A DNA stretch of 34,132 nt. It comes from an uncultured Eubacterium sp. (GTDB lineage: Bacteria; Bacillota; Clostridia; Lachnospirales; Lachnospiraceae). Numbering within the stretch: the stretch's first letter is position 1; every line of letters starts with the position of its first letter. The translations under genes and the position numbers were made by a program. Under the pieces are notes generated by a model. It ran no database searches. It saw only the letters and a program-made list of their open reading frames with translations, and had not been told where the DNA came from. The stretch is from NCBI GenBank assembly GCA_949959185.1, contig CATLIX010000037.1:1-34132 (forward strand), in the 5' to 3' direction. Positions 4,328 through 30,197 of this stretch are shown here, one piece after another.

Positions 4328-4635
4328 CAGTTTCAGAAAATGAGATATTCAAAGACCATGACGAAGACAGTAGGACAGCATTCCAACGTCACAGCGAGCC
4401 GGGCGGGTGTGAGCCGGTATCAGTAGAGGCTGTCTGAATATCACTTTCAGTCGCTTTGCTGAACTTCCCGTGTCAGATGAGAACTGATAAGGGAACAGTA
4501 GGGAAAGACGGGATATTCCTCCGTTACGGGAATCGCGTATGCTGGCTGAAATTCTGTTTTTGAGCCAAAGTACGGTGTAACAGGTGGTAAACGATGCTAT
4601 GGCCTCGTCCTTTTACAGGGCGGGGTCTTTTTTAT
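4328..4635 (+). promoter_or_regulatory. Isoleucine T-box leader with terminator
   Basis: The leader has the T-box order of elements. It contains a stem I region with GAGCCGGG...GTGAGCCGG, a specifier loop GAATATCAC with the Ile codon ATC at 4440-4442, a central purine-rich segment, and the T-box bulge AGGTGGTAA at 4582-4590. The TGGT in that bulge pairs with the ACCA end of uncharged tRNA. The terminator stem CCTCGTCC / GGGCGGGG (4603-4625) is followed by a T-rich run to 4635. It is expected to terminate when tRNA-Ile is charged and to read through into ileS when it is not. The boundaries, particularly the 5' end, are approximate. Confidence 0.88.
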
Positions 4636-4768
4636 CCACAGGAAAGCAGTCTTTACAGGACTGTTTCCTGTGGATAAAAAAAGTCTGATATGCGCAGCGC
4701 GCGGAGAGGAAATCTATTGCTGCGCAATCCGCTCGCGCGCGGAGAATGCACAGGATGCATTCTTTTTT
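4628..4768 (+). repeat. Intergenic hairpin repeat, copy A, between the T-box terminator and ileS
   Basis: Module 1 is a long hairpin, TTATCCACAGGAAA / TTTCCTGTGGATAA with an inner CAGTC / GACTG stem (4628-4682). Module 2 (4691-4740) carries GCGGAGAGGAAATCTATTGC and GCAATCCGCTCGCGCGC. It closes with a terminator-like hairpin, AGAATGCA / TGCATTCT plus TTTTTT (4743-4768), immediately before the ileS ribosome binding site. The same modules recur near 17852 and 29836. Confidence 0.7.
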
Positions 4769-4788
4769 ATCGAAAGGAGAACTGACTC

Positions 4789-7700
4789 ATGTACAGCAAA
4801 GTAGAAAAAAATCTGAGCTTTGTGGAAAGAGAAAAACAGACGGAAAAATTCTGGAAAGACCATGATATTTTCCGAAAAAGTATGGAAAACAGAAAGGACG
4901 GAGAGACCTATACCTTTTATGACGGGCCGCCCACGGCCAACGGAAAACCTCATATCGGCCATGTGCTGACCCGCGTCATCAAGGATATGATTCCCAGGTA
5001 TCAGACCATGAAAGGGAAGATGGTTCCCCGGAAAGCAGGATGGGATACCCATGGCCTCCCGGTGGAGCTGGAGGTGGAAAAACTGCTGGGACTGGACGGA
5101 AAAGACCAGATTGAAGCCTATGGGCTGGAGCCTTTTATAGATAAATGCAAGGAAAGTGTCTGGAAATACAAAGGCATGTGGGAAGATTTCTCCGGTACCG
5201 TGGGATTCTGGGCCGATATGGACGCCCCTTATGTGACCTATCACAATGATTTCATTGAATCGGAATGGTGGGCCCTAAAAGAAATCTGGAACCGGAAATT
5301 ACTCTACAAAGGTTTTAAGATTGTGCCTTATTGTCCCCGGTGCGGAACCCCTCTGTCTGCTCAGGAAGTGGCTCAGGGGTATAAAACCGTAAAAGAACGT
5401 TCCGCTATTGTAAGATTTAAAGTAAAAGACGAAGACGCTTATTTCCTGGCATGGACCACAACTCCCTGGACTTTGCCTTCCAATCTGGCCCTCTGTGTAA
5501 ATCCGGAGGAAACCTACTGTAAAGTAAAGGCGGCAGACGGAATTATTTATTATATGGCGCAGGCTCTGCTGGATAAAGTGATGGGAACGCTGCTGGATAA
5601 AGAACAGCAGGAATCCGGAGCAAAACCATACGAAGTGCTGGAAACTTATAAGGGAACCGATTTGGAATACCGGGAATATGAGCCCCTGTATGAAGGAGCG
5701 AAAGAAGCAGCCGAAAAGCAGCATAAGAAGGCTCATTTTGTAACCTGCGACAGTTACGTTACCATGACAGACGGTACGGGAATCGTGCATATTGCCCCGG
5801 CGTTCGGTGAGGATGACTCCAAAGTGGGGAGAAAATATGACCTGCCTTTTGTACAGTTTGTCAATGGAAAGGGAGAACTGACAGAGGGAGCGCCCTTTGC
5901 AGGTACTTTCTGTAAAAAAGCGGACCCCATGATTTTACAGGATCTGGAAGACCGGAAACTGTTATTTGACGCACCGAAGTTTGAGCATGAGTATCCTCAC
6001 TGCTGGCGCTGTGATACGCCGCTGATTTACTATGCAAGAGAATCCTGGTTTATTAAAATGACCGAAGTGAAAGAGGATTTAATCCGCAATAACAATACCA
6101 TCAACTGGATTCCGGAAAATATCGGCAAAGGCCGGTTCGGAGACTGGCTGGAAAATGTACAGGACTGGGGAATTTCCAGAAACCGTTACTGGGGAACTCC
6201 TCTGAACATCTGGGAATGTGAATGCGGCCATATGCATTCCATCGGAAGCATTGCGGAATTAAAAGAGATGTCAGAAAACTGTCCGGAAGAAATAGAGCTG
6301 CACCGCCCTTATATTGACGCAGTGACCATCAAATGCCCCGAATGCGGGAAGGAGATGCATCGTGTACCGGAAGTGATTGACTGCTGGTTTGACTCCGGAG
6401 CCATGCCCTTTGCCCAGCATCATTATCCATTTGAAAATAAGGAAGTATTTGAACAGCAGTTCCCGGCAGATTTTATTTCCGAAGCAGTGGACCAGACCAG
6501 GGGATGGTTTTATTCCCTGCTGGCAGAGTCTACTCTGCTGTTTAACAAAGCCCCTTATGAAAATGTAATTGTTCTGGGCCATGTACAGGATGAAAACGGT
6601 CAGAAAATGAGCAAATCCAAAGGAAACGCCGTTGACCCCTTCGAGGCGCTGGAAACTTACGGTGCAGATGCTATCCGCTGGTATTTCTATATCAACTCCG
6701 CACCCTGGCTGCCTAACCGGTTCCATGGAAAAGTGGTGCAGGAAGGACAGAGCAAATTTATGGGAACTCTGTGGAATACCTACGCGTTCTTCGTACTGTA
6801 TGCCAATATTGATGATTTTGACGCCACAAAATATGGGCTGGAATATGGTAAATTATCTGTGATGGATAAATGGCTTCTTTCCAGACTGAATACCATGGTG
6901 GAACAGGTGGACGGCCATCTTGGTAATTACCGGATTCCGGAAGCCGCACGGGCACTGCAGGAATTTGTGGACGATATGAGCAACTGGTATGTGCGCAGAA
7001 GCCGGGAGCGGTTCTGGGCAAAAGGCATGGAGCAGGATAAAATCAACGCTTACATGACGCTGTATACGGCACTGGTAACAGTCAGCAGGGCAGCGGCGCC
7101 CATGATTCCCTTTATGTCAGAGGATATCTACCGGAATCTGGTGTGCAGTATTGACAGTTCCGCGCCGGAAAGCGTGCATCTCTGCGATTTCCCGGAGGCT
7201 GACAGGAGCCTGATGGATGAAGGCCTGGAAAAAAACATGGAAGCAGTATTAAAGATTGTGGTGATGGGAAGGGCCTGCAGGAATACTGCAAACATCAAAA
7301 ACCGCCAGCCCATCGGCACCATGTTTGTCAAAGCGCCGGAGGAACTTCCGGAGCTGTTTACGGATATTATAAAAGATGAGCTGAACATCAAAAAAGTGGC
7401 CTTTACGGAGGATGTGAGCAGCTTCACAGATTATACGTTCAAGCCTCAGCTTCGCACCGTAGGACCAAAGTACGGGAAATTTTTAAAGCAGATTCAGCAG
7501 GCTCTGGGGGAATTAAACGGCAATCAGGCCATGGCGGAACTGAAATCCAAAGGAAGTATTACCCTTGACAGCGTAAATGCAGACGTTGTATTATGTGAGG
7601 AGGACCTTCTTATTACTATGACTCAGCAGGAAGGCTATGTGACAGAAGGAGACAATGAGGTGACTGTTGTACTGGACACCAGCCTGACGCCGGAGCTGAT

Positions 7701-7953
7701 AGCAGAGGGCTTTGTCCGGGAACTGATCAGTAAGATTCAGACCATGCGCAAAAAGGCAGGGTTTGAGGTAATGGATAAGATTCACGTTTTCTACCAGGCA
7801 GAAGAAACCATAGATAAAATTTTCAGAGAGTTCGGCGGACAGATTCAGTCCGAGGTGCTGGCTGTGGATATTACCGGGTCTGAGATAAAAGGCCATTCGG
7901 AAACATGGGATATCAACGGAGAATCTGTGGTACTTGGAGTGGAAAAGGTGTGA
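4789..7953 (+). CDS. ileS: Isoleucyl-tRNA synthetase
   Basis: This 1054-residue class I synthetase charges tRNA-Ile with isoleucine in the cytoplasm. The HIGH motif is at residues 55-58 (within PTANGKPHIGHVL) and KMSKS is at 606-610. The editing CP1 domain contains the WTTTPWTLPSNLAL segment and the D-x-T-G-I-V-H-I-A-P-A-F-G-E-D-D motif. CxxC pairs occur at PYCPRCG and CPECG. The C-terminal anticodon-binding region runs from about 670. The length and these features fit the longer, eukaryote-like type 2 IleRS found in many Clostridia; some type 2 enzymes tolerate mupirocin, but that cannot be read from sequence here. AAGGAG sets the start. The T-box upstream supports the substrate identity independently. 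Confidence 0.97.
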   Translation: MYSKVEKNLSFVEREKQTEKFWKDHDIFRKSMENRKDGETYTFYDGPPTANGKPHIGHVLTRVIKDMIPRYQTMKGKMVPRKAGWDTHGLPVELEVEKLLGLDGKDQIEAYGLEPFIDKCKESVWKYKGMWEDFSGTVGFWADMDAPYVTYHNDFIESEWWALKEIWNRKLLYKGFKIVPYCPRCGTPLSAQEVAQGYKTVKERSAIVRFKVKDEDAYFLAWTTTPWTLPSNLALCVNPEETYCKVKAADGIIYYMAQALLDKVMGTLLDKEQQESGAKPYEVLETYKGTDLEYREYEPLYEGAKEAAEKQHKKAHFVTCDSYVTMTDGTGIVHIAPAFGEDDSKVGRKYDLPFVQFVNGKGELTEGAPFAGTFCKKADPMILQDLEDRKLLFDAPKFEHEYPHCWRCDTPLIYYARESWFIKMTEVKEDLIRNNNTINWIPENIGKGRFGDWLENVQDWGISRNRYWGTPLNIWECECGHMHSIGSIAELKEMSENCPEEIELHRPYIDAVTIKCPECGKEMHRVPEVIDCWFDSGAMPFAQHHYPFENKEVFEQQFPADFISEAVDQTRGWFYSLLAESTLLFNKAPYENVIVLGHVQDENGQKMSKSKGNAVDPFEALETYGADAIRWYFYINSAPWLPNRFHGKVVQEGQSKFMGTLWNTYAFFVLYANIDDFDATKYGLEYGKLSVMDKWLLSRLNTMVEQVDGHLGNYRIPEAARALQEFVDDMSNWYVRRSRERFWAKGMEQDKINAYMTLYTALVTVSRAAAPMIPFMSEDIYRNLVCSIDSSAPESVHLCDFPEADRSLMDEGLEKNMEAVLKIVVMGRACRNTANIKNRQPIGTMFVKAPEELPELFTDIIKDELNIKKVAFTEDVSSFTDYTFKPQLRTVGPKYGKFLKQIQQALGELNGNQAMAELKSKGSITLDSVNADVVLCEEDLLITMTQQEGYVTEGDNEVTVVLDTSLTPELIAEGFVRELISKIQTMRKKAGFEVMDKIHVFYQAEETIDKIFREFGGQIQSEVLAVDITGSEIKGHSETWDINGESVVLGVEKV

Positions 7954-7991
7954 CTTTTAAGACGGAGGCACCAGAGAGGAAGGAGATAGCA

Positions 7992-10457
7992 ATGCAGAAC
8001 AAGATGTTTGAAAAGGAAAAGTTTATTCAGGAGATTAAGGACAACGTAAAGAATCTTTACCGCAAGACGCTGGAGGAGGCTTCACAGCAGGAGGTATACC
8101 AGGCCGTATCTCAGGCAGTGAAGGAAGTGATTATCGACCAGTGGCTGGCAACCCAGAAAACCTTTGAAAAGGAAGACCCGAAGATTTTATATTACATGTC
8201 CATGGAATTTCTGATGGGCCGGGCTCTGGGAAATAACCTGATTAACCTGACTGCATACAAGGAAGTAAAAGAAGCACTGGAAGAAATCGGATTTGATCTG
8301 AATGTGATCGAAGACCAGGAGCCGGATCCGGCATTGGGAAACGGTGGTCTGGGAAGGCTTGCAGCATGTTTCATGGAATCTCTTGCAACTCTGGGCTATG
8401 GAGCATACGGATGCGGAATTCGCTATCGCTATGGACTGTTCCGCCAGAAAATTAAAGACGGATTTCAGATGGAAGAGCCGGATAACTGGCTGAAAGACGG
8501 TTATCCCTTTGAAATGCGCCGGCCGGAGCATACCTTCCAGGTAAAATTCGGAGGCTATGTGCGCTCAGAAGGAGACGCCAACGGTAAAACCAGATTTATC
8601 CATGAAGGATACCAGTCTGTCCGTGCGGTTCCCTACGATATGCCGGTGGTAGGTTACAACAACAATATGGTCAATGTGCTGATTGCATGGGATGCGGAGC
8701 CGGAAAAGTATTTTGAGCTGGACGCATTTGACAAGGGCGATTATAAAAAGGCAGTGGAGCAGGAAAATCTTGCCCGGAATCTGGTGGAAGTGCTCTATCC
8801 CAATGACAATCATATTCAGGGAAAAGAACTGCGCTTAAAGCAGCAGTATTTCTTTGTATCTGCCAGCGTACAGCGTGCAGTGGCCCGCTATAAAAAATAT
8901 CATACGGATTTGCACAAACTGCCGGAAAAAGTGGCAATTCAGTTAAATGATACCCACCCGACCGTGGCAGTGGCAGAACTGATGCGGATTCTTCTGGACG
9001 AGGAAAATATGGAATGGGAGGAAGCATGGGCAATTACCACCAGAACCTGCGCATATACCAACCATACCATTATGTCCGAAGCACTGGAAAAATGGCCCAT
9101 TGAGATTTTCTCCAGACTGCTGCCCAGAATTTATCAGATTATTGAGGAAATCAACCGCCGGTTTATCCTGGATATTGAGAAGAAATTCCCGGGAGACCGT
9201 TATAAAGTTCAGAAGATGGCGATTATTTACGATGGCCAGGTAAAAATGGCTCATCTTGCCATTGCAGCAGGCTGTTCCGTCAACGGTGTGGCAAGACTGC
9301 ATACGGAAATCCTGAAAAACCAGGAGTTGCATGAGTTCTATCAGATGTTTCCGGAGAAATTTAACAATAAGACCAACGGAATTACCCAGAGAAGATTCCT
9401 GTATCATGGCAATCCGCTGCTGGCCGAGTGGGTCAACAAGTATATCGGAAACGACTGGGTAACCAATCTGCCCCACCTGTCCAGACTGGCAGTTTACGCT
9501 GACGACGAAAAGGCACAGCAGGAATTTATGAACATCAAGTACCAGAATAAACTGCGTCTGGCAGCTTATATCCGTGAGCACAACGGAATCAATGTGGATC
9601 CGCGTTCCATTTTTGACGTACAGGTAAAACGTCTCCATGAGTACAAACGCCAGCTTCTGAATATTCTGCATGTGATGTACCTGTACAATAAAATCAAAGA
9701 ACATCCGGAAATGGATTTCTATCCCAGAACTTTTATTTTCGGGGCAAAGGCAGCGGCAGGCTACCGTATTGCCAAGCTGACCATCAAACTCATTAACAGC
9801 GTGGCAGAAATCATCAACAATGACGCTTCCATCAACGGAAAGCTCAAAGTGGTATTTATTGAAGACTACAAGGTATCTACCGCAGAATGGATTTTTGCAG
9901 CGGCAGATGTGTCGGAGCAGATTTCCACCGCCAGCAAGGAAGCCTCCGGAACCGGAAACATGAAATTTATGCTGAACGGTGCCGTTACACTGGGAACCAT
10001 GGATGGTGCAAACGTGGAAATTGTAGAAGAAGTGGGCGAAGAAAATGCCTTTATTTTCGGAATGAGCTCTCAGGAGGTCATTGAACATGAGCAGAAACGG
10101 GATTATGCCCCCATGCAGATATTCAACAGCGACCAGGATATCCGCCAGGTACTGATGCAGCTGATTAACGGAATGTATTCCCATAATGATACGGAACTGT
10201 TCCGTCCCCTGTACAATTCTCTGCTGAATACCCTGGATACCCAGTATGCGGATACCTATTTCATTCTGAAAGATTTCCGCTCCTATGTAAAAGCACAGGA
10301 AGAGGTGGAGCAGGCATACCGGGACGAGAAGAGATGGGCCAGAATGGCCATGCTGAATACGGCTCATTCCGGCAAGTTTACTTCTGACCGTACCATTCAG
10401 GAATATGTGGATGATATCTGGCATCTGGACAAAGTAAAAGTGGAACTGCCGAAATAA
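7992..10457 (+). CDS. glgP: Glycogen/maltodextrin phosphorylase
   Basis: The enzyme cleaves alpha-1,4-glucan ends with phosphate to give glucose 1-phosphate, using PLP. The protein has 821 residues, normal for GT35. YMSMEFLMGRALGNNL is near the N-terminus, followed by EPDPALGNGGLGRLAACFM, the DTHPT segment and the cofactor motif EASGTGNMKFMLNG, whose lysine (residue 658) should carry PLP. The start is MQNKMF at 7992, preceded by GAAGGAGATAGCA; an upstream in-frame ATG at 7905 lies inside ileS and is rejected. It begins 38 bp after ileS and may be partly co-transcribed with it. No other glycogen genes are adjacent. Confidence 0.96.
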   Translation: MQNKMFEKEKFIQEIKDNVKNLYRKTLEEASQQEVYQAVSQAVKEVIIDQWLATQKTFEKEDPKILYYMSMEFLMGRALGNNLINLTAYKEVKEALEEIGFDLNVIEDQEPDPALGNGGLGRLAACFMESLATLGYGAYGCGIRYRYGLFRQKIKDGFQMEEPDNWLKDGYPFEMRRPEHTFQVKFGGYVRSEGDANGKTRFIHEGYQSVRAVPYDMPVVGYNNNMVNVLIAWDAEPEKYFELDAFDKGDYKKAVEQENLARNLVEVLYPNDNHIQGKELRLKQQYFFVSASVQRAVARYKKYHTDLHKLPEKVAIQLNDTHPTVAVAELMRILLDEENMEWEEAWAITTRTCAYTNHTIMSEALEKWPIEIFSRLLPRIYQIIEEINRRFILDIEKKFPGDRYKVQKMAIIYDGQVKMAHLAIAAGCSVNGVARLHTEILKNQELHEFYQMFPEKFNNKTNGITQRRFLYHGNPLLAEWVNKYIGNDWVTNLPHLSRLAVYADDEKAQQEFMNIKYQNKLRLAAYIREHNGINVDPRSIFDVQVKRLHEYKRQLLNILHVMYLYNKIKEHPEMDFYPRTFIFGAKAAAGYRIAKLTIKLINSVAEIINNDASINGKLKVVFIEDYKVSTAEWIFAAADVSEQISTASKEASGTGNMKFMLNGAVTLGTMDGANVEIVEEVGEENAFIFGMSSQEVIEHEQKRDYAPMQIFNSDQDIRQVLMQLINGMYSHNDTELFRPLYNSLLNTLDTQYADTYFILKDFRSYVKAQEEVEQAYRDEKRWARMAMLNTAHSGKFTSDRTIQEYVDDIWHLDKVKVELPK

Positions 10458-10463
10458 GAACCT

Positions 10464-11492
10464 ATGAATAAATTACAGATAAAACATTCCCTGCTGCTGT
10501 TTCTGACTGCCTGTATCTGGGGCGTGGCTTTTGTGGCTCAGAGCGTGGGAATGGATTATGTGGGGCCGCTGACCTTTAACTGCGTCCGGTCCCTCCTGGG
10601 CGGCGCGGTACTGATTCCCTGTATCTGGTTTCTGGAAAAATACGGCAGCCGGGGCAGAAAGTCTGAAAACAGAGAACCGTGCCGGTCGGGACAGCCATTG
10701 GAAAGTAAGGTACAGTCGGGCATTACAGAAAAAATTTCTGACAGCAGGAAACTGGCAGCAGGAGGAATCCTCTGCGGCATTCTGCTGTGTCTGGCCACTA
10801 ATTTCCAGCAGGTGGGAATTGCCTACACCACAGTGGGGAAGGCAGGATTTATCACTGCCTTTTATATTGTGCTGGTTCCCATTCTGGGGCTGTTTTTCCA
10901 TAAGAAGTGCGGATGGACGCTGTGGGCCGGTGTAGTTCTGGCGCTGACAGGACTGTATTTTCTGTGTATGTCAGGTTCCGCCGGACAGAAGGTACAGGAA
11001 CGGTTAATTACAGGCATTCCCATTGGAAAAGGAGATTTTCTGGTATTTATCGGAGCGCTTCTGTTTTCAGTGCATATTCTGGTGATTGATTATTTTACGG
11101 AACGGGTGGATGGAGTAAAAATGTCCTGTATTCAGTTTTGGGTCTGCGGGTTGCTGTCGGGAATCGGGATGTTTCTGACAGAAGAGCCACGTCTGGCAGA
11201 TATTCTGGCAGCCTGGCAGCCCGTTCTGTACGCGGGGGTACTGTCCTGCGGAGTGGCCTATACCCTTCAGATTGTGGGGCAGAAGGGTATGAATCCCACG
11301 GTGGCGGCCCTGATACTCAGTCTGGAATCCGTGGTTTCCGTACTGGCAGGCCTGATACTGCTGGGACAGCATATGACCTGGCAGGAAACAACCGGGTGCG
11401 TGCTGATGTTTGCAGCCATTATTCTGGCGCAGATTCCCGGAAATTCCGTATCACGAAAGAAAGACCGGGAACCGGAGTCTGTACAAAAGTGA
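10464..11492 (+). CDS. EamA/DMT-family transporter
   Basis: This is a 342-residue inner-membrane protein with about ten predicted transmembrane helices in two EamA repeats (about 8-140 and 175-322). The first helix reads LLLFLTACIWGVAFVAQSVG, typical of the drug/metabolite transporter superfamily. A hydrophilic, charged insert of about 35 residues (about 58-93, SRGRKSENREPCRSGQ onward) interrupts the first repeat, and a basic tail closes the protein. Substrate is unknown. The start is only six bases after the glgP stop codon and has no clear ribosome binding site, which suggests translational coupling. Confidence 0.88.
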   Translation: MNKLQIKHSLLLFLTACIWGVAFVAQSVGMDYVGPLTFNCVRSLLGGAVLIPCIWFLEKYGSRGRKSENREPCRSGQPLESKVQSGITEKISDSRKLAAGGILCGILLCLATNFQQVGIAYTTVGKAGFITAFYIVLVPILGLFFHKKCGWTLWAGVVLALTGLYFLCMSGSAGQKVQERLITGIPIGKGDFLVFIGALLFSVHILVIDYFTERVDGVKMSCIQFWVCGLLSGIGMFLTEEPRLADILAAWQPVLYAGVLSCGVAYTLQIVGQKGMNPTVAALILSLESVVSVLAGLILLGQHMTWQETTGCVLMFAAIILAQIPGNSVSRKKDREPESVQK

Positions 11493-11537
11493 ACGGAGGA
11501 CAGAATCAACAGGAAGCAGCCGGAAAGAGAGGGTAAA

Positions 11538-16800: not shown

Positions 16801-16834
16801 GGCAGGAGCGAATCAGGCTCCTGCCTTTGTTTTC
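16801..16834 (+). terminator. Terminator of galKT
   Basis: GGCAGGAGC (16801-16809) and GCTCCTGCC (16817-16825) make a 9-bp GC-rich stem followed by TTTGTTTTCTT. Confidence 0.85.
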
Positions 16835-17020
16835 TTATAGGAAAGAACTTGTCACGCTAAAGTGTGAAAGTGTCTTCCTATAAGAGAAAAGTAATATGCG
16901 CGCTCGTGCAACAGGTATTAGTCGCTAAAGTGACTGCACTCGGCGCAGCAAACCGTCCAGATCCCTCATTCATGAGGGATTCAGGGAGCTGATGCGGACC
17001 TGTCCGCTTCGGTCCTGAAT
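16833..17020 (+). repeat. Intergenic hairpin repeat, copy B
   Basis: Module 1 is the hairpin TCTTATAGGAA / TTCCTATAAGA (16833-16885), enclosing GTCACGCTAAAGTGTGAAAG. A divergent middle part follows. Module 3 starts AGCAAACCGTCCAG (16947), has the small inverted repeat TCCCTCAT / ATGAGGGA, and ends with GCGGACC / TGTCCGC hairpin sequence (16994-17007). It fills the whole space from the galT terminator to the stop codon of the convergent DUF134-NifX gene. Confidence 0.7.
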
Positions 17021-17824: not shown

Positions 17825-17851
17825 TAATTAGTCGCCGGAAACTTTTTAGAT

Positions 17852-17976
17852 GAAATTTATTGCTGCGAAATCCGCTCGCGCGCGAAGAATGCGCCTGCGC
17901 AGCAAACCGTCCAGGTCCCTCATGATGAGGGATTCAGGGAGTTGAAGCGGACCTGTCCGCTTTGTTCTTTACATAG
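17852..17976 (+). repeat. Intergenic hairpin repeat, copy C, between two divergent promoters
   Basis: It holds module 2 in short form (GAAATTTATTGCTGCG then AAATCCGCTCGCGCGCG) and a small AATGCGC / GCGCA hairpin. Module 3 follows from AGCAAACCGTCCAGGTCCCT (17901) to AAGCGGAC / GTCCGCTT (17945-17962). It begins about 28 bp beyond the -35 of the minus-strand promoter, and its right edge overlaps the -35 of the hflX promoter. Confidence 0.7.
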
Positions 17977-23957: not shown

Positions 23958-23977
23958 AATTGTTTCCTTATCTATAT

Positions 23978-23994: not shown

Positions 23995-24005
23995 AATATA
24001 CAATC

Positions 24006-24034
24006 ACTATAAACGTCAGAGGGAGATTTGTCAA
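24006..24034 (-). promoter_or_regulatory. fabH promoter
   Basis: On the minus strand TTGACA (24029-24034) and TATAGT (24006-24011) have a 17-bp spacer. The transcript would start near 23999, just before the FabT-like box. Confidence 0.75.
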
Positions 24035-24263
24035 TGGGAAAACGCAATAAAATGCCGTTTTGATTTCCTGTAAATGATACTGTAAAAACTGCGAATCATA
24101 CCATGCGGCTCAAATCGAAATTTTTATTTGCTATAATAATCTGACTGCAAAATATAAATTTTTATGAAAAGCAGGATATCGGTAAAAGAAGACCGGAAGA
24201 CAGCAAAAACGAGAGTAAGGGATACGGCATATGCGGTTTTCCCCATCAGGAAGGGCGAAAAAG

Positions 24264-25391
24264 ATGAACAGAATTTTTTCACAGGAAGAAATAAATACCG
24301 GGCGGCAGAGGGAGTTTGATTATCTGAAAGGGATTTTTATGGTGCTTATATACCTGATTCATGCCTTTCAGGCGACGTTGTCCGAGGAGGATTTCATAAC
24401 TCAGGGAATCTATATGTTTGCGACAATGTCCGGTGCGGCTGTTTTTATCTTCGTTTTGGGAGTCGGGACTGTTTACAGCAGGGAGACAGCACCGGCGGCA
24501 TTTGTAAAAAACGGTATACGCATGGTGATTTATCAGTATCTGAACAACATTTTGTATGTGGCTGCGCTGCTGCTCCCTTATCCTTTCGTATACAAAACTC
24601 TGTCGGAAACCGGGAGAGAGAATGTCCGGTTTCTGGCGGAGCTGTACATTCAGTATACCAATATCTTTTTTATTACCGGAATCATATATTTTGTACTGGC
24701 ACTGTTTCAGAAACTGAAGATGAAAGCTGTCTGGTATATAATCATCGGTGCGGCAGTCAGCATGGCAGCTCCCTTTCTTTATGGAACGCCTGTGAATGTG
24801 CCGGTATTTGGGTATGTGATAAAACTCCTGATTGGAGAAGCAGATTTCGTTTCTTTTACGCCCCTTTATTTTCTGTCCTATGCGCTGTTCGGCGTTGCTT
24901 TCGGCAAAATTCTGCGTCATGTGAAAGATAAAGCGCGGTTTTACCGATTGCTGGCCATTCCCTGTGTCCTGCTCGTTATCGCATGGTGGGTACAGGTATT
25001 TGGGAAATATGGTTCGGACATATCAGAAATGCGGAGGGTGCTGGGCGACGCATATACACAGCCGGACCCCTGGCATGTGGCGGCAGGCATGGCGCATATT
25101 ATTCTGCTTGCCATAATCTTTTTCTTTATGGAAAGAATCGGCAGTAAGGATAGGGAAACGGGCAGATCAGGGAACCCTGTTGCCAGGCAGATTCTGTATT
25201 ACAGCAAACATATTTCCAAATATTATGCGCTGCATATAATTGTATTTTTTATTGCTCTTGGAATGAACGGGTATGAGAGCTTTAAAAGTTATGAATGCTG
25301 GCTTCTTGCGCTGCTGTCAATGATTGTGACAGAATTTCTGGTAAGAGGATATAATGCGCTCAGAGAGAAGAAATCCGCTTCAACGCCCTGA
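24264..25391 (+). CDS. Multi-pass membrane protein, DUF1624/acyltransferase-3-like
   Basis: The protein has 375 residues and about ten hydrophobic helices. The N-terminal REFDYLKGIFMVLIYLIHAF (about 16-36) resembles the first helix of acyltransferase-3 and HGSNAT/DUF1624-type proteins, with a histidine in the expected place. These families move acyl groups onto envelope sugars or polymers, but the match is by pattern only and no substrate is indicated. AGGAAGGG precedes ATG 24264. An alternative in-frame ATG at 24231 also has an AAGGGA upstream, so the start is uncertain. A TATAAT at 24132 may be its -10. The 23958-24263 gap otherwise holds the fabH control region. Confidence 0.65.
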   Translation: MNRIFSQEEINTGRQREFDYLKGIFMVLIYLIHAFQATLSEEDFITQGIYMFATMSGAAVFIFVLGVGTVYSRETAPAAFVKNGIRMVIYQYLNNILYVAALLLPYPFVYKTLSETGRENVRFLAELYIQYTNIFFITGIIYFVLALFQKLKMKAVWYIIIGAAVSMAAPFLYGTPVNVPVFGYVIKLLIGEADFVSFTPLYFLSYALFGVAFGKILRHVKDKARFYRLLAIPCVLLVIAWWVQVFGKYGSDISEMRRVLGDAYTQPDPWHVAAGMAHIILLAIIFFFMERIGSKDRETGRSGNPVARQILYYSKHISKYYALHIIVFFIALGMNGYESFKSYECWLLALLSMIVTEFLVRGYNALREKKSASTP

Positions 25392-25464
25392 ATCTCTCGT
25401 TCATGAGGAACTTGGCGTTTTGCAGACAGAGGCTCCCGGTACATTTATTGTGCCGGAAGCCTCT
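25382..25464 (+). terminator. Two successive hairpins after the membrane-protein gene
   Basis: AACGCC (25382-25387) pairs with GGCGTT (25414-25419), followed by TT, and overlaps the stop codon. A second stem, AGAGGCTCCCGGTACA (25428-25443) with TGTGCCGGAAGCCTCT (25449-25464), has one mismatch and one U-G pair and is followed by CTTTG. Together they plausibly end transcription. Confidence 0.6.
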
Positions 25465-25578
25465 CTTTGATTCCGGGACAATCAGAAACGTCTGTTTCCA
25501 GACACATTTTGCCTGTATCTGCATACTATAGAGGAAAATACCTGTTTGTGCCGTAAACAGGCACAGAAAGGAGAAATC

Positions 25579-26340
25579 ATGGCAGTTACAATAATTCTGG
25601 ACGCCGGGCACGGGGGCTATGATAACGGGGCTTCCTATAATGGAAGGAGAGAAAAAGACGATACTCTGCGGGTAGCTCTTGCAGTGGGAGAAAAACTGGA
25701 AAACGCCGGGTACAATGTGCTGTATACAAGAACCACAGACCGTTACGACTCGCCTTTTGAAAAGGCTCAGATTGCCAACCGTTCCGGAGCGGATTATTTT
25801 ATTTCTTTCCACCGGAATTCCGGAGCCACGCCAAATACTTACAACGGGACACAGGCGCTGGTATATGAGACAGGTACGGAGGCGGAAAGACTGGGAAGAA
25901 CCATCAATGATCAGCTTGTTAAATTTGGATTTAAGGATTTGGGAGTGGTGGAGCGCCCTGGTCTGGTGGTGCTCAGAAGAACACAGATGCCGGCTGTGCT
26001 GATGGAACTTGGGTTTATCAACCACGATGGAGATAACCAGATGTTTGACCAGCGTTTTGATGAAATGGTGGACGCCATTGTGACAGGGGTGGAACAGGCA
26101 ATCCCCCTGACCGGATCTTCCGGAAAATACGGAGTGCAGGTGGGCCTGTACCGTTATGAATCCAATGCGGAATATATGAGAGAACAGCTGGAAAGCCAGG
26201 GATATCTGGCCACCGTACGGCGGGAAGGGCCGTATTATGCGGTGGTTGCCGGAAGAGAAGACAGTCTGGATGATGCCAGGGCTCTTCAGAACCGGCTTCG
26301 GCAGGACGGATATGATACGCTGGTAGTCAATATGGAATAG
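25579..26340 (+). CDS. N-acetylmuramoyl-L-alanine amidase (Amidase_3) with C-terminal SPOR domain, no signal peptide
   Basis: The enzyme should cut the amide bond between MurNAc and the stem peptide. The protein has 253 residues. The Amidase_3 zinc and catalytic residues are visible: His11 in ILDAGHGG, Glu25, His78 in ISFHRNSG and Glu143 in VLMELGFI. A SPOR peptidoglycan-binding domain covers about 183-251, beginning GKYGVQVGLYRYESNAEYM. There is no signal peptide or membrane segment at the N-terminus, unlike housekeeping CwlD/AmiC. AAGGAG precedes ATG 25579; the earlier ATG at 25546 has this site inside its reading frame and is rejected. The gene ends with TAG. It may be released by lysis or act as a lysin-type enzyme. 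Confidence 0.92.
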   Translation: MAVTIILDAGHGGYDNGASYNGRREKDDTLRVALAVGEKLENAGYNVLYTRTTDRYDSPFEKAQIANRSGADYFISFHRNSGATPNTYNGTQALVYETGTEAERLGRTINDQLVKFGFKDLGVVERPGLVVLRRTQMPAVLMELGFINHDGDNQMFDQRFDEMVDAIVTGVEQAIPLTGSSGKYGVQVGLYRYESNAEYMREQLESQGYLATVRREGPYYAVVAGREDSLDDARALQNRLRQDGYDTLVVNME

Positions 26341-26552
26341 TGAAACAGATTATTCTAAACTTTTTATAAAATCGGCAAAATCATATTTACAATTCCGGAA
26401 GATTTCTGTATGATAAACATATCTTTTGTTCAACGTACCGAAATCTCTGTACGGAATTTCCAGATATAAATTGTAAAACATGATTCGTTTCCGGATTTAT
26501 TTCAGATACCTGACGCGAGAATGCTCCCCTTCTGTAAAACAAGGAGAGAAAA

Positions 26553-27458
26553 ATGAAAATAGCGTTTTGGAGTGAAGAGGAACAGACAGCAACCGCCTGG
26601 CATACGGGGCTGGTGGCCTGTGCCTGCGCGTTAAAGTATCCTCTGTGTGTTGCAGTAGTTCCCGGCGGTTACAGCGGGGAAGAGCTGGAGCAGAATTTCC
26701 TGCGAGGGGAACGGAGTCGGACGCAGCTGGAGCAGGCAAATGGATCTGCCGGCGGCCGGAGACCTCAGGGGCTGTCTGCGGACAGCAGTTTTCTTACAGG
26801 CAGTCAGAAAGAAGACTGCCTGCTGGCAGCCGAACAGCAGGAGTATTTTCTGGCAGGAGGTCTGGACTGTCTGCTGAGCATGATGCCGGAAGAACTGACT
26901 GCACCGGTCATCCGGGGCAATATGCGCCAGATTCTGGCAGGAAGCCTGTACTGTCTGCCCGGAAGCCGGAGAAAGGAACGGGAATGGTGGCAGGAAGACC
27001 CTCTTTTTACAGGGCTGAAAAGAGTGCTGGATGCAGTGGAGCATTGTTTTGATGTTATGTTTGTGGACTGCGGCAGCAGGAAAGATGACGTTGCCCGGAA
27101 TCTTCTGTCAGAAGCTGACGTCTGTGTGCTGAACATGAATCAGGAATCGGAATTAATCGGGGAATATTACAGGAATCCGCCCAAATTCCGGGGGAAAACC
27201 TTTTTTCTGATAGGCAATTACTTTGAGAACAGCCTGTATACAAGGAAGAACCTGGAGCGGATTTACCGGGTGGATGAAGATATGCTGGGAGCTGTGCCCT
27301 ATCATCCCTGGCTGCAGGCGGCCGGAAGAACCGGCAGGGCCGGAGCAGAGGTTCAGAAATACCTTGGGAAGAATATCAGGGGGAAAAGCGTGTTTTTTGA
27401 GCAGGAACTGGCGAGAACGGCCAGACTGATTTTAAAACTGGCGGGAGTGATTCAGTAA
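26553..27458 (+). CDS. Degenerate ParA/MinD/TadZ-like protein without a P-loop
   Basis: The protein has 301 residues. The fold pattern of a MinD/ParA-type ATPase can be followed: a first strand MKIAFWSEE; a DVMFVDCGSRKDD strand like the Walker B D-x-x strand; a VCVLNMNQESELI strand; KTFFLIGNYFE; and a closing LGAVPYHPWLQAAGRTG region like VPYDP in TadZ/CpaE proteins. The P-loop should fall at about residues 7-20, but the segment EEEQTATAWHTGL has no G-K-T/S, so ATP binding is probably lost. AAGGAGAG precedes the ATG. No tad or pilus genes adjoin it. Function unknown; a regulatory or scaffold role is inference. Confidence 0.6.
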   Translation: MKIAFWSEEEQTATAWHTGLVACACALKYPLCVAVVPGGYSGEELEQNFLRGERSRTQLEQANGSAGGRRPQGLSADSSFLTGSQKEDCLLAAEQQEYFLAGGLDCLLSMMPEELTAPVIRGNMRQILAGSLYCLPGSRRKEREWWQEDPLFTGLKRVLDAVEHCFDVMFVDCGSRKDDVARNLLSEADVCVLNMNQESELIGEYYRNPPKFRGKTFFLIGNYFENSLYTRKNLERIYRVDEDMLGAVPYHPWLQAAGRTGRAGAEVQKYLGKNIRGKSVFFEQELARTARLILKLAGVIQ

Positions 27459-27473
27459 GTACGGTTTCCGTTC

Positions 27474-27512
27474 CTGTTACGGATTTCCTGTATGAGAGAA
27501 AATCCGTAACAG
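27474..27512. terminator. Hairpin between convergent ParA-like and cyclophilin genes
   Basis: CTGTTACGGATTT (27474-27486) and AAATCCGTAACAG (27500-27512) form a perfect 13-bp stem with a 13-base loop. There is no immediate T-run on either strand, so efficiency is uncertain. Confidence 0.5.
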
Positions 27513-27527
27513 ATGAAAACAGACTTT

Positions 27528-28049
27528 TTAACAGGTTTCCGGTTCCGGGTAAGTTTCTCCGAAAGTTTCAACCGTAACCTTTTTCAGCACCTGGGGCTCC
27601 ATGGGGCGGTCGGAATAGTCCGTTGCGGTTTCTGCAATCCGGTTGACAACGTCCATCCCTTCTGTAATCTGTCCGAATGCCGCATAGGCCCCGTCCAGAT
27701 GAGGAGAGTCTTTGTGCATAATGAAGAACTGGGAACCTGCCGAATCGGGAGCCATAGTGCGGGCCATGGACAGGACTCCGGCCTGGTGTTTTAAATCGTT
27801 ATCAAAACCGTTCTGAGAGAATTCTCCCCGGATACTGTAGCCGGGGCCGCCGGTTCCGGTTCCTTCCGGGCATCCGCCCTGAATCATAAATCCCCGGATG
27901 ACGCGGTGGAAGCAGAGTCCGTCATAATAGCCTTTCTGAATCAGGCTGATAAAATTATTTACTGTGTTGGGGGCAGTCTGCGGGAAAAGCTCCGCTTTCA
28001 TGACGCCGCCGTCTTCCATTTCAAAAGTTACAATTGGATGTTGAGCCAT
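27528..28049 (-). CDS. Cyclophilin-type peptidyl-prolyl cis-trans isomerase
   Basis: The protein has 173 residues. It catalyses proline isomerisation during protein folding, in the cytoplasm since no signal peptide is present. Conserved active-site parts are LCFHRVIRGFMIQGG, the SAGSQFFI segment and LDGAYAAFGQ. The upstream ATG at 28151 is rejected in favour of MAQHPI at 28049, preceded by AGAGGT. It is an isolated gene, convergent with the ParA-like gene and divergent from the SSB-like gene. Confidence 0.94.
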   Translation of the reverse strand: MAQHPIVTFEMEDGGVMKAELFPQTAPNTVNNFISLIQKGYYDGLCFHRVIRGFMIQGGCPEGTGTGGPGYSIRGEFSQNGFDNDLKHQAGVLSMARTMAPDSAGSQFFIMHKDSPHLDGAYAAFGQITEGMDVVNRIAETATDYSDRPMEPQVLKKVTVETFGETYPEPETC

Positions 28050-28246
28050 AATCGTTACCTCTTTTCGAAATATAGTATAGTGCCTGTCAATATTACCTCT
28101 GATATTATACCTGGAATTGCTGTTTTCGTAAAGAGTAAATCCTGTCGACAAGAAGTGCGAATATTTTCAGAAAACCAATGGTATTCTTTTAGAAAAATTT
28201 ATACTTCGTCGATGTGCCGTCGATATACGAAAGGGGACTAATACTC

Positions 28247-28873
28247 ATGGCAGATAAAATATTTGAAAACAATCAGGTTACAATTACAGGTGAAATCGTA
28301 TCAGATTTCCAGTATAGTCACGAGGTGTTTGGGGAAGGCTTTTATATGGTAGAAGTATCGGTAAACAGGCTGAGCAATTTTGCAGATATTATTCCGATGA
28401 TGATATCCGAACGCCTGATTGATACCCAGAGCAGTTACATAGGACAGTACATACGGGTGGACGGACAGTTCCGCTCCTACAACAGACACGAGGAAAAGAA
28501 GAACCGTCTGGTGCTGTCCGTATTTGTAAGAGAGCTGGAATTTGTAGATGAGATTCCTGAGGGAGAGAAAAGCAATCAGATTTTTCTGGATGGATATATC
28601 TGTAAAGATCCCATTTACCGGAAAACGCCTCTGGGAAGAGAAATTGCGGATTTGCTCATAGCAGTGAACCGTTCTTACGGAAAATCCGATTATATCCCAT
28701 GTATCTGCTGGGGAAGAAATGCCAGATATGCTTCCGGATTTGAGGTGGGAGGCCATGTGCAGGTGTATGGAAGAATCCAGAGCAGAGAATATGTGAAAAA
28801 ACTTTCGGAGATGGAAGTGGAACACAGAGTTGCCTATGAAGTATCTGTAAGTAAAGTGGAATATATTGAATAA
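28247..28873 (+). CDS. SSB-like protein with two OB-fold domains
   Basis: The protein has 208 residues. The second half (about 106-208) reads as a single-stranded DNA-binding OB-fold: NQIFLDGYICKDPIYRKTP, LLIAVNRSYGKSDYIPCICW and GGHVQVYGRIQSREY. The first half (about 6-100) has the same order of strands in a more diverged form (NQVTITGEIVSDFQYS then RLSNFADIIPMMISERL), suggesting an internal duplication. Housekeeping SSB has one such domain and an acidic DDDLPF-like tail, which is absent here. AAGGGG lies upstream of ATG 28247, and the ATG at 28214 is rejected. Role in DNA repair, recombination or plasmid-like functions is unknown. Confidence 0.8.
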   Translation: MADKIFENNQVTITGEIVSDFQYSHEVFGEGFYMVEVSVNRLSNFADIIPMMISERLIDTQSSYIGQYIRVDGQFRSYNRHEEKKNRLVLSVFVRELEFVDEIPEGEKSNQIFLDGYICKDPIYRKTPLGREIADLLIAVNRSYGKSDYIPCICWGRNARYASGFEVGGHVQVYGRIQSREYVKKLSEMEVEHRVAYEVSVSKVEYIE

Positions 28874-28924
28874 TTGTAAAAATGTAAAAATTAAGTTCAG
28901 TAAACAGTTTATACATAACAATAA

Positions 28925-28939
28925 TCTGTTATTAACAGA
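28925..28939. promoter_or_regulatory. Candidate operator palindrome upstream of the BtuR-like gene
   Basis: TCTGTTA-T-TAACAGA is a perfect 15-bp palindrome with one central base, in a 177-bp gap. A TTGACA follows at 28948, but no -10 at proper spacing is evident, so the promoter is not defined. Confidence 0.3.
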
Positions 28940-29050
28940 CACAGAATTGACAAAAATTTGCATTTTCCAGTGGTTTGTGGTATTTTAAGAAAAGATTTGG
29001 AGCAACTGCTTTGCACAGTTACGATTTGCAATGTAAGAAAGGAAAATGAC

Positions 29051-29536
29051 ATGTGTAAGAAAAAAGTTACTGTTTATTGCGGTAATGGAAAAGGTAAAAC
29101 AGCGGCGGCCCTTGGGTATGCGATACAGTCTGCAGGTCAGGGAAAGAATTCCATCATTATTCAGTTTATGAAAGGGAAAAAGGAAAAAGAGATAGAACAG
29201 CTGCTGAGCCGGCTGGAACCGGAAGTGAAGTTTTTCTCATTTGCAAGATTTGAGAAGGATTTTTCGGAGCTTTCTCAGGAGGAGCAGCAGGAAGAAAGCA
29301 TGAATATACGCAACGGGTTTAATTTTGCCAGGAAGGTTCTGGTTACAGGAGAGTGCAATCTGCTGATACTGGACAGTTTTCTGGAGCTTCTGGACAACGG
29401 AATGATTTCCGGCGAGGATCTGGAAACTCTCATGAACGCCAGTTCAGAAGATACGGAGATTCTGTTTACCGGAAAGCATGTGAATGACGCCCTGCGCGAA
29501 TATGCGGAAAAAATTTATGAAATTCATGCGGACTGA
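29051..29536 (+). CDS. BtuR/CobA-like corrinoid adenosyltransferase-family protein
   Basis: The protein has 161 residues, a little short for the family. The P-loop GNGKGKTAAALG is at residues 11-22, as in ATP:corrinoid adenosyltransferases, which transfer the 5'-deoxyadenosyl group from ATP to cob(I)alamin. The IIIQFMKGKKEKE and TGKHVNDALREYAEKIYEIH parts also follow the family. The normally acidic pair after the Walker B strand, LDE, is LDS here (Asp108, Ser109), so activity is uncertain. AAGGAAA precedes ATG 29051, and the upstream in-frame ATG at 28958 is rejected. No cobalamin genes adjoin it. Confidence 0.72.
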   Translation: MCKKKVTVYCGNGKGKTAAALGYAIQSAGQGKNSIIIQFMKGKKEKEIEQLLSRLEPEVKFFSFARFEKDFSELSQEEQQEESMNIRNGFNFARKVLVTGECNLLILDSFLELLDNGMISGEDLETLMNASSEDTEILFTGKHVNDALREYAEKIYEIHAD

Positions 29537-29547
29537 CCATATCGCTG

Positions 29548-29576
29548 TTGACTTTATGGCTGGAAAATGCTATAGT
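29548..29576 (+). promoter_or_regulatory. Promoter of the lysine-riboswitch/dapAB transcript
   Basis: TTGACT (29548-29553) and TATAGT (29571-29576) are separated by 17 bp. Transcription should start near 29583. Confidence 0.8.
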
Positions 29577-29598
29577 AGCGTTAGTAAAACATATGAAT

Positions 29599-29764
29599 AG
29601 ATAGAGGTTGCGTAATTCATGAGTAATTTATCGGATGTGACAGGCACAGAGGATGATAACTGAAAGGGAAGAACGCCGAAGGAAGTTCTTTTCCTGGAGA
29701 GAAGTTCCTGGGCATATAGTGAAGAATTATATGACTGTCATCAGTGGATGGAGTGCTATCATGG
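29599..29764 (+). promoter_or_regulatory. Lysine riboswitch (L box)
   Basis: Conserved L-box pieces appear in order: ATAGAGGTTGCG, GAGTAA, GAAAGGGAAGAACGCCGAAG, GACTGTCATCAGTGG and GGAGTGCTATC. A terminator follows about 45 nt later. With lysine bound, transcription should end before dapA. The genes downstream, dapA and dapB, are the first dedicated steps of lysine synthesis, consistent with this ligand. Confidence 0.93.
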
Positions 29765-29808
29765 ATTATGAGCAGAGAACAGAGTTTTTTGCAAATGTCA
29801 GAATCTTT

Positions 29809-29837
29809 AAGCCGACTTGTCCAGTCGGCTTTTTTTA
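29809..29837 (+). terminator. Terminator of the lysine riboswitch
   Basis: AAGCCGACT (29809-29817) and AGTCGGCTT (29823-29831) form a 9-bp stem with a five-base loop and a run of seven or more T. Confidence 0.9.
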
Positions 29838-30070
29838 TCTTATAGGAATACTGTTCCACTGTGAAGTGTTAAAGCGTATAGATTTCCTATAAGATAAAGC
29901 CCTCCGGGCAGGATGCGCAGCTCGCGGAGAGGAAATTTATTGCCAGGCAATCCGCTCGCGCGCAGCAAACCGTCCAGGTCTTTTCTTTCAGGCTGAGAGG
30001 GGAGGACGATATGTTCAGCATACCGTGTATGCTCTGACATACCGTAAATGAAGCGGACCTGTCCGCTTTG
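29836..30070 (+). repeat. Intergenic hairpin repeat, copy D1 (all three modules)
   Basis: Module 1 is the hairpin TATCTTATAGGAA (29836-29848) / TTCCTATAAGATA (29884-29896). Module 2 (29911-29963) has ATGCGCAGCTCGCGGAGAGG and GGCAATCCGCTCGCGCGC. Module 3 runs from AGCAAACCGTCCAGGTC (29964) to the perfect hairpin AAGCGGAC / GTCCGCTT (30051-30068). This is the most complete copy in the window. It lies between the riboswitch terminator and dapA. Confidence 0.75.
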
Positions 30071-30197
30071 TTCTCTTACAGGAATACCGTGTCACGCTAA
30101 AGCGTGAAAGTGTCTTCCTGTAGAATAAAACTATTATCCGCACGCGTGCAGGCGTATGTTCTGACATACCGTAAATGAAGCGGCTCTGTCCGCTTTG
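30071..30197 (+). repeat. Intergenic hairpin repeat, copy D2, in tandem with D1
   Basis: Module 1 (TTACAGGAA...TTCCTGTAG) shares GTCACGCTAAAG and GTGAAAGTGTCTTCCT with copy B. The end part repeats the D1 end: a perfect 24-bp direct repeat (30033-30056 and 30160-30183) runs from TCTGACATACCG into GAAGCGG. It closes with a hairpin AAGCGG...CCGCTT (30178-30195), about 15 bases before the dapA ribosome binding site. Confidence 0.72.

Follow-up and report, generated by a model that had tools for sequence, protein, structure and literature searches.

A structure-conserved repeat family lying behind intrinsic terminators in Lachnospiraceae, and its probable origin as a mobile element

What are the hairpin-rich repeats that recur between the genes of this locus, and how did they come to be there? 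The window, that is the whole stretch of 34,132 nucleotides analysed here from an uncultured Eubacterium sp. of the Lachnospiraceae, had been reported in a preliminary description to hold modular intergenic repeats near positions 1, 4628, 16833, 17852 and 29836-30197. We propose, with a probability of about 0.6, that they are copies of a non-coding, non-autonomous Lachnospiraceae mobile element which inserts directly 3' of intrinsic terminators, perhaps by a one-ended, terminator-primed route.

Copies in the window and spread of the family

A full unit, approximately 160-195 bases long in the complete copies read, runs from the M1 hairpin through the M2 hairpin to M3, a terminator-like hairpin (Table 1). 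Module HMM profiles were made from copies in a second genome of the same species (G061); because these profiles include orthologues of the window copies, their scores indicate presence and not independent discovery. M1 was matched at 49-54 bits, M2 at 19-57 bits and M3 at 19-67 bits (in the enlarged M3 of copy 4, at 29964-30040 and 30049-30079), and the ceilings in 20 shuffled windows were 8.1, 10.1 and 6.3 bits, respectively. The copies from 4628 onwards were borne out in this way, with the qualification that the M1 hairpin at 4628 is there but differs in sequence, and was not scored by the M1 profile. Near position 1 a remnant is present, consisting only of the distal M2 end and M3a at the contig edge. 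We conclude that the copies named earlier are present, and that the family exists and extends beyond what was first seen.

Table 1. Repeat modules and their terminator targets in the window.
Feature	Position	Strand	Basis
Distal remnant (M2 end + M3a hairpin GAATCCTGCAAAGCAGGATTC-TTT), contig edge	1..42	+	read from sequence
Copy 1 target: host intrinsic terminator + T-tract, T-box-type leader of ileS	4603..4633	+	sequence
Copy 1 M1 hairpin, own stem sequence TTATCCACAGGAA..TTCCTGTGGATAA	4628..4682	+	read from sequence; unscored by M1 profile
Copy 1 M2	4692..4740	+	HMM 50.5 bits
Copy 1 M3a terminator-like hairpin GAATGCACAGGATGCATTC-TTTTTT	4741..4768	+	read from sequence
Copy 2 target: host terminator after galT	16801..16829	+	sequence
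Copy 2 M1	16829..16889	+	HMM 54.4 bits
Copy 2 M2, variant stem GTGCA/TGCAC	16900..16946	+	HMM 18.9 bits
Copy 2 M3b, AGCAAACCGTCCAG...GGACCTGTCCGCTT	16947..17019	+	HMM 64.7 bits
Copy 3 partial M2, without M1	17848..17883	+	HMM 31.7 bits
Copy 3 M3b	17901..17970	+	HMM 67.0 bits
Lysine riboswitch of dapA; its terminator is the copy 4 target	29594..29766	+	Rfam RF00168, 116.3 bits
Lysine riboswitch terminator AAGCCGACTTGTCCAGTCGGCTT + T-tract	29809..29836	+	sequence; same terminator in G024
Copy 4 M1	29834..29898	+	HMM 51.1 bits
Copy 4 small GC hairpin GCCCTCCGGGC	29899..29909	+	sequence; analogues read in other genera
Copy 4 M2	29915..29963	+	HMM 56.7 bits
Copy 4 M3b (enlarged), ends AAGCGGACCTGTCCGCTTTG, the copy 5 target	29964..30070	+	HMM 27.6 + 19.0 bits
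Copy 5 M1, stacked on copy 4 M3	30070..30129	+	HMM 49.1 bits
Copy 5 degenerate M2/M3 remnant before dapA	30130..30197	+	direct repeat D7

Copy 1 lies upstream of ileS (TIGR00392), its M3a ending 20 bases before the ATG at 4789; the T-box assignment of this leader was made by eye and has no Rfam match at gathering, and the terminator hairpin has an energy of -19.9 kcal/mol (G061 orthologue, 1863628). At the position of this M3a, a genome of another species of the genus (G024) has a different stem sequence. The terminator behind galT, a gene named by NCBIfam, is of -22.8 kcal/mol (G061 orthologue, 1851422), and the gene downstream of copies 4 and 5 is dapA (TIGR00674; ATG at 30225). The preliminary description had not remarked on the terminators behind which copies lie, on the terminator-like nature of M3 or on the occurrence of copies inside attenuated leaders.

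The modules recur well beyond the window, and the earlier refuting condition, that they be found nowhere else in the genome, is clearly contradicted by the matches. A 401-base probe gave 61 matches in the genome to which the window belongs (G000), itself included. A covariance model, proposed earlier as a follow-up, was built from 29 copies of that genome and gave 145 matches in G061 (150 of 2257 candidates scored), some being reverse-strand readings of the same hairpins; across a Lachnospiraceae sample it matched in 142 of 397 genomes, covering 128 of 334 genera. No Rfam family reached the gathering threshold on the element itself, and gathering matches beside copies were to riboswitches, T-boxes, an L10 leader, tRNA and rRNA only. 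A relaxed Rfam search returned sub-threshold matches, the best being mir-965 for M1 (E 0.0046) and one of E 0.14 for copies from other genera. The earlier view of a mobile-looking, structure-conserved family holds, and the family has no Rfam counterpart. Carriage by phage or plasmid was considered and rejected, since a 239-base own-species probe had no blastn match there at E 1e-3 and the only exact-pattern match in viral contigs was a truncated copy adjoining a tRNA.

Conserved structure and position behind terminators

The paired stem changes reported earlier are real. Both sides had changed in 11 of 32 pairs among the 29 own-genome copies, a figure reached by 0 of 500 shuffles. For 35 matches in other species the figure was 25 of 32, with an alignment that had been fitted to the structure; both counts use alignments related to an M1 structure drawn by hand from the sequences, RNAalifold alone having recovered only M2. 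Across genera, 176 double-change cells were counted against 42 when shuffled (five reverse-strand palindrome readings included). When stems were located by sequence anchors only, with 9 of the 29 loci dropped because anchors could not be found, 170 of 180 stem positions in 20 loci were complementary, the best of 10,000 shuffles giving 78%. We conclude that the stems covary across genera and that the structure is conserved.

The mismatches bear on which strand is kept. Read on the sense strand, M1 of other species has 3 G.T against 22 A.C mismatches, whereas the host terminators adjoining copies have 33 G.T against 4 A.C; M1 is therefore not maintained as RNA of the sense strand, and its lean is towards the bottom strand. 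The A.C excess is smaller in the own species (18 G.T against 30 A.C, p 0.11), where the model-based M1 count is dominated by two columns. M2 gives a mixed G.T and A.C picture. The mismatches of M3 are A.C-biased (2 G.T against 10 A.C), which speaks against M3 being a maintained, working sense terminator. The earlier suggestion of selection on RNA or DNA structure can be narrowed in that the sense RNA strand is not what is selected in M1.

We found that copies lie directly behind intrinsic terminators. At -12 kcal/mol such a terminator was directly upstream of 60 of 70 copies (9 shuffled), and at -10 kcal/mol the counts were 61 in this same set (15 shuffled), 28 of 29 in a 29-copy set (0 shuffled) and 17 of 20 in a 20-copy set (1 shuffled), the controls being one mononucleotide shuffle per copy. 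Units point in the same direction as the terminator they directly follow, and a terminator-like hairpin was seen downstream of M2 in 35 of 70 copies (7 shuffled) and 23 of 29 (4 shuffled). The terminators are those of mRNA ends, tRNA genes, riboswitches and T-boxes, and this variety of targets argues against one single regulatory role. Attenuated leaders also hold copies, between the riboswitch or T-box terminator and the gene. Along the direction of replication in G061, 109 of 117 elements were co-oriented against 262 of 362 ORFs; this count used 117 of the 145 matches (after removal of contigs C2 and C3, of rows matching part of the model and of those below 44.8 bits) and a replichore switch set at 3.48 Mb, the point at which the elements change strand. 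The turn of GC skew to positive falls between 3.52 and 3.70 Mb, and with a later switch the count was 105/117 (3.60 Mb) or 102/117 (3.70 Mb).

Evidence for movement and competing explanations

Mean identity is 97% among eight copies in one genome (G310), whose flanks are 20-22% identical, and 94% among six copies in another (G235), whose flanks are at 26-27%; because near-identical units have unrelated flanks, the element has moved. Tandem units of approximately 195 bases also occur, with the terminator joined to M1. Loss of the distal end is the commoner, 38 units keeping the M1 end only and 8 the M3 end only (p 9e-6), a count inflated because M3 is harder to recognise than M1; the M1-only hairpins could be a separate element. 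Both ends abut T-tracts, and in the comparisons made, all with other species, no target-site duplication was separable from them. In the near-identical units read, the inverted repeat forms the M1 hairpin at one end, and M3 makes up the distal end. The element thus has none of the paired ends of a MITE, there being no terminal repeats at both ends, and the MITE-like character suggested earlier is not shown. No empty sites were seen within the species: of the 30 best copies in G061, 21 are collinear in G000, and no counterpart was retrieved for the other nine. Many of the orthologous sites in G024 carry another M1 hairpin, a difference for which gene conversion or selection by the host could also account, and some are without the element.

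No mobilising enzyme was found in these searches, and the candidates fare unequally. That the repeats are REP/BIME-type sequences mobilised by a RAYT (Y1) transposase, as the REP-like label of the preliminary description implied, would fit the many palindromic intergenic copies and the presence of PF01797 in the genus, where 18 of 29 genomes have it and G061 has it seven times. However, PF01797 has no match in G000 or in five copy-bearing genomes of the genus (G024, G009, G010, G021 and G006), and four Y1 loci inspected among the matches listed (L061-L064) are IS200-type with ends unrelated to those of the element. RAYT mobilisation is contradicted in these genomes, an earlier loss of the RAYT being conceivable, and we consider it scarcely credible. 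A degenerate group IIC intron, of the class that inserts behind terminators, would share target and orientation with the element, but no intron matched in Rfam at gathering or relaxed thresholds and the structure is by eye unlike domain V. The association with group II maturase is weak (53 of 142 element-positive against 71 of 255 element-negative genomes, p 0.055), and of 45 genomes having at least six scored matches, 27 have no such maturase. In G000, RVT_1 was matched in one place only, a group II-type gene broken across two frames, and no intact reverse transcriptase was found. We regard an intron origin as very improbable, and do not need it to account for the element.

Copies situated between riboswitch or T-box terminators and genes, together with the conserved structure, could point to a regulatory RNA read from the sense strand, whether an attenuator, an antiterminator or a 3' UTR element, that was amplified for its usefulness; this is decidedly improbable, since the M1 mismatches are A.C on the sense strand whereas adjoining host terminators show the expected G.T excess. 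An antiterminator switch, pairing the start of M2 with the 3' arm of M3a, was noted by eye in some copies and dropped, as that pairing is absent at ileS in both species. A host-maintained double terminator or insulator, homogenised by gene conversion and without recent mobility, would explain why G024 often has another M1 hairpin at the corresponding position behind an orthologous terminator, and why all three modules persist in the ileS leader of both species with stem sequences that differ. Against it are the near-identical units with unrelated flanks, the absence of the element from some orthologous sites and the many kinds of terminator occupied, and we think it improbable. Movement as DNA, with no RNA copy, by a transposase acting in trans on the terminator hairpin or on a hairpin in the single bottom strand, is a real possibility, though at less than even odds. 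The adjacent target hairpin, the lack of a separable target-site duplication and the leading-strand bias all suit it, and IS1272 is reported (PMC5678879) to target a stem-loop structure and not a sequence, with no target-site duplication reported. The IS1272 target stem-loop is reported to be replaced, however, whereas the target hairpins are kept here, and DNA transposition would require neither one-sided distal loss nor a lean of M1 to the bottom strand. Of 92 ORFs neighbouring 29 retrieved copies, 69 were scanned and matched 115 Pfam families; the 25 commonest of these families include no transposase or autonomous partner, a survey that could miss a rare one.

Proposed route of insertion and comparison with known systems

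For the non-autonomous element that we favour, a trans-acting enzyme would copy or insert the unit starting from the M1 end. The terminator T-tract, as a top-strand 3' end, could pair with the A-tract closing M1 on a bottom (antisense) copy, and synthesis would then proceed from M1 to M3, often halting early. Priming at the T-tract is the likeliest step, and is put forward tentatively. Such a scheme would parallel SINE-type retroposition in a bacterial setting; its specific form, in which an antisense element transcript ending 3' in the M1 hairpin and A-tract is reverse transcribed from the terminator T-tract, is doubtful. Terminators would on that view be both primers and safe harbours, each complete insertion making the next target. 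Since insertion is 3' and the far end is a terminator-like hairpin, the host terminator is kept and a new target added each time, and therefore units can stack.

Taken as a whole, the earlier reading of the repeat family is partly supported. If our reading is right, a structured mobile element that has no name and is tied to transcription termination is present in about a third of the sampled genomes of the Lachnospiraceae, which are common in the gut. It would offer a natural system for how mobile elements recognise terminators and let one ask whether bacteria host SINE-type retroposition. Because the element lies in riboswitch and T-box leaders (dapA, ileS), attenuation output may change, and annotation of terminators, UTRs and ncRNAs may be confused.

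Eukaryotic SINEs are non-coding and mobilised in trans, with one end fixed at a T/A-tract junction and the other truncated. The element resembles them in having one fixed and one truncated end (38 against 8 units, subject to M3 detection and sampling), and differs in its bacterial host, its terminator target and the lack of a known helper reverse transcriptase. Group IIC introns insert 3' of terminator hairpins in the sense orientation; unlike them, the element has neither Rfam intron domains nor a reverse transcriptase, and ends in a terminator-like hairpin. REP/BIME sequences with their RAYT are palindromic intergenic repeats of many copies, as is the element, although several copy-rich genomes here have no Y1 transposase match. 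The BOX, SPRITE and RUP repeats of Streptococcus pneumoniae are modular small structured interspersed repeats judged parasitic (PMC3049150); they are best tolerated when downstream of genes, a composite RNA is formed by one BOX together with T-box riboswitches, and SPRITE is terminator-like. The likeness to these small Firmicutes repeats is one of modular, structured architecture. Unlike BOX, the element is spread over many genera within one family, and we found no helper IS whose ends match its own. Most of its copies directly follow a terminator, the unit starting in the T-tract and ending in a terminator-like hairpin. With IS1272 the element shares a stem-loop structure as target; IS1272 encodes a transposase and is reported to replace the stem-loop by IR-replacing transposition, whereas the element encodes nothing and keeps the hairpin behind which it lies.

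Anatomy and spread of the repeat family

The preliminary description proposed that three hairpin modules make up the intergenic copies, and this was borne out: the module profiles, which speak of presence only because they derive from copies in a second genome of the species (G061) that include orthologues of the window copies, score 19 to 67 bits in the sequence, whereas no score above 10.1 bits arose when the window was shuffled 20 times. A complete unit runs T-tract, M1 hairpin, small GC hairpin, M2 and M3. The left side of M1 consists of TTTT, about five lineage-specific bases and ATAGGAAA, followed by the loop, and its right side of TTTCCTAT, the complement of the lineage-specific bases and AAAA. 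In M2, GATGCGCA and a stem precede a purine-rich bulge that contains AGGAAA, after which come a hairpin, a stem and GCGC. M3 is a terminator-like hairpin of either of two types.

Of the 29 fetched loci in which the M1-M2 plan was readable, 28 come from other genera; the remaining one, L232, belongs to a different species of the window's genus. The lineage-specific M1 bases vary between lineages yet remain complementary: in the 20 loci that could be anchored (9 of the 29 were dropped), pairing is kept at 170 of 180 anchored positions (94%), whereas shuffling gave a mean of 66% and a best of 78% in 10,000 trials. In a model-fitted alignment of 35 matches, including five reverse-strand readings of the palindrome, double-sided change was seen in 25 of 32 pairs (176 cells, against 42 when shuffled). 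The closing pairs of M1 join the T-tract with the A-tract, and two of these are invariant across the 35 rows.

Coordinates of element features in the window and in compared genomes
Sequence	Position	Strand	Feature	Remark
Window	3807-3853		M1-like hairpin, other stem bases (TTTTTATCATACAGGAA..TTCCTGTATGATAA)	6.2 bits (weak); no clear terminator upstream
Window	25374-25423	-	Lone M3 remnant	28.7 bits; overlaps ORF end
Window	30070		Stacked units
G061, locus L293	5315		M1 seemingly lost by internal deletion	T-tract and last M1 bases remain
G024 (other species, same genus)	C49_10151		Element absent	Terminator retained
G024	C17_42363		Element absent	Own copy there has lost M3 as well

The family is genome-wide, since a 401-base probe matches 61 places in the window's own draft genome (G000), itself included. 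Two contigs of this draft, C42 at its end and C21 at its start, break off inside element copies, and copy number in draft genomes is therefore probably underestimated. The RNA model of the family (R1), built on 29 copies of the own genome and a hand-drawn stem structure, gave 145 matches in G061, some of them being hairpins already counted and read again on the reverse strand. With at most eight candidates scored per genome, 142 of 397 Lachnospiraceae genomes (128 of 334 genera), the own genome included, were positive, as were 5 of 391 genomes in a class-level sample, all five of them Lachnospiraceae. A plain DNA probe detected far less: within the genus it matched 24 of the 27 further genomes, in other Lachnospiraceae genera 1 of 9, and in other families of the order 0 of 24.

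Position behind terminators and mobility

A hairpin of −12 kcal/mol or below lay immediately upstream of 60 of 70 G061 copies, against 9 when shuffled (61 against 15 at −10); at −10 the figures were 28 of 29 against 0 in other species, and a second set of 20 genomes from other genera gave 17 against 1. The element follows terminators of many kinds, those at mRNA ends and behind tRNA genes as well as attenuators. Within the window, a lysine riboswitch (RF00168), a terminator and then two stacked units precede dapA, and a T-box-like terminator followed by a full unit precedes ileS. An Rfam scan of 68 G061 loci (the set of 70 less two members of an array) found one FMN, two cobalamin and three T-box leaders upstream of copies; the ileS and aspS T-boxes were recognised by eye and go unreported at the Rfam gathering threshold. 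An M3-like terminator follows M2 in 35 of 70 G061 copies (7 shuffled) and in 23 of 29 others (4 shuffled). The M3 of one unit can serve as target for the next, which explains the stacking, seen also in a G061 tandem array of 195-base units, and much of the apparent module mixing. A viral contig (L284, IMGVR_UViG_3300019371_000266) carries a shortened unit downstream of a tRNA-like 3′ end; its M2 is cut, and read by eye this locus may be a provirus edge.

Near-identical units are dispersed in two further Lachnospiraceae genomes: eight copies in G310 are on average 97% identical (94-100%) with flanks at 20-22%, and six in G235 are 94% identical (90-97%) with flanks at 26-27%. Between the near-identical G061 and G000, 21 of the 30 best G061 copies are collinear at 99% or more; the other nine had no counterpart among the fetched G000 loci, and this comparison yielded no within-species empty site. 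Between species, we aligned 55 orthologous regions and read 23 junctions. Some G024 sites are without the element (see table), and at many others the same terminator is followed by a different M1 hairpin. Target-site duplications could not be separated from the T-tracts at the junctions read. We conclude that mobility is shown by dispersed near-identical units rather than by a witnessed insertion.

Strand bias, one-sided loss and a proposed direction of insertion

A hairpin maintained as RNA tolerates G.U on its own strand, and a sense-strand RNA is thus expected to show G.T rather than A.C mismatches. Using a single stem finder, in which Watson-Crick pairs alone are rewarded, we found 42 G.T against 4 A.C in the host terminators directly upstream (p 5e-9), and 21 against 44 in M1 (p 0.006). 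Taken by set, the M1 ratio was 18:30 for G061 (p 0.11) and 3:14 for the other species (p 0.013). In the second, independent set of 20 genomes host terminators showed a ratio of 15:1 and M1 one of 0:8, and pooling the other species gave 33:4 and 3:22 (p 1.6e-4), respectively. By model alignment, M1 and M2 together gave 7:31 in other species; the corresponding G061 total, 63:96, is dominated by two columns. M2 was mixed, at 6:0 by stem finder and 32:35 (G061) and 5:17 (other species) by model. M3 showed 2:10 along with many other mismatches, which is not the pattern expected if it were maintained as a functional terminator on the sense strand, and we therefore term it terminator-like only. The A.C excess in M1, against the G.T excess in host terminators, indicates that the M1 hairpin is not kept as sense RNA; its constraint leans towards the bottom strand, whether in the form of antisense RNA or of single-stranded DNA of that strand.

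A census of 60 stretches of 20 kb in G061 (20 evenly spaced, 40 hand-picked, some with known copies) left 89 units after removal of 3 at edges. The M1 end without M3 was seen in 38 and M3 without the M1 end in 8 (p 9e-6), a ratio that is an upper estimate because M3 escapes recognition more easily than M1 does and stretches were hand-picked. Eleven units break off within M1 while their terminator side is preserved, six of them at the point where the right M1 arm would start. Co-orientation with replication was found for 109 of 117 G061 copies (between 102 and 109 according to where the replichore switch is placed), against 262 of the 362 ORFs counted in the regions sampled; core genes may exceed these ORFs in orientation bias.

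Mobility, strand bias, one-sided loss and orientation together suggest that insertion would begin at the terminator side and run through M1 to M3. Should an antisense copy ending in M1 and the A-tract meet the 3′ end of the top-strand T-tract, copying would account for the junction and direction seen, for the constraint on the bottom strand and for the loss of the distal end. We infer a SINE-like mode of insertion, to which movement by a transposase acting on DNA is a close rival. Y1 transposases are present in 18 of 29 genomes of the genus and were not found in several copy-rich genomes. As for reverse transcription, RVT_1 matches a single place in the own genome, a broken group II-type enzyme split over two frames (contig C97, L059). 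A maturase is present in 53 of 142 element-positive against 71 of 255 element-negative genomes (p 0.055), an association that is not clear, and is absent from 27 of the 45 genomes in which at least six matches were scored, G310 included. The searches for reverse transcriptase, maturase and Y1 transposase thus identified no mobilising enzyme. Contig C1 of G061 carries seven equal-scoring Y1 transposase copies; none was found in the draft G000.

Relation to known elements

No Rfam family reaches threshold on the element, and a literature search, largely by title and with the subscription literature aside, returned no title describing it; the part of a MITE review available to us names no family of this sort (PMC10969869). 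We therefore file it as a newly found variant among small non-autonomous mobile repeats, outside REP, MITE, BOX and group II introns. It has a stem-loop target in common with IS1272 (PMC5678879). Nearest in kind are BOX and SPRITE of pneumococcus, which are modular, structured and tolerated 3′ of genes, with one BOX fused with T-boxes (PMC3049150).
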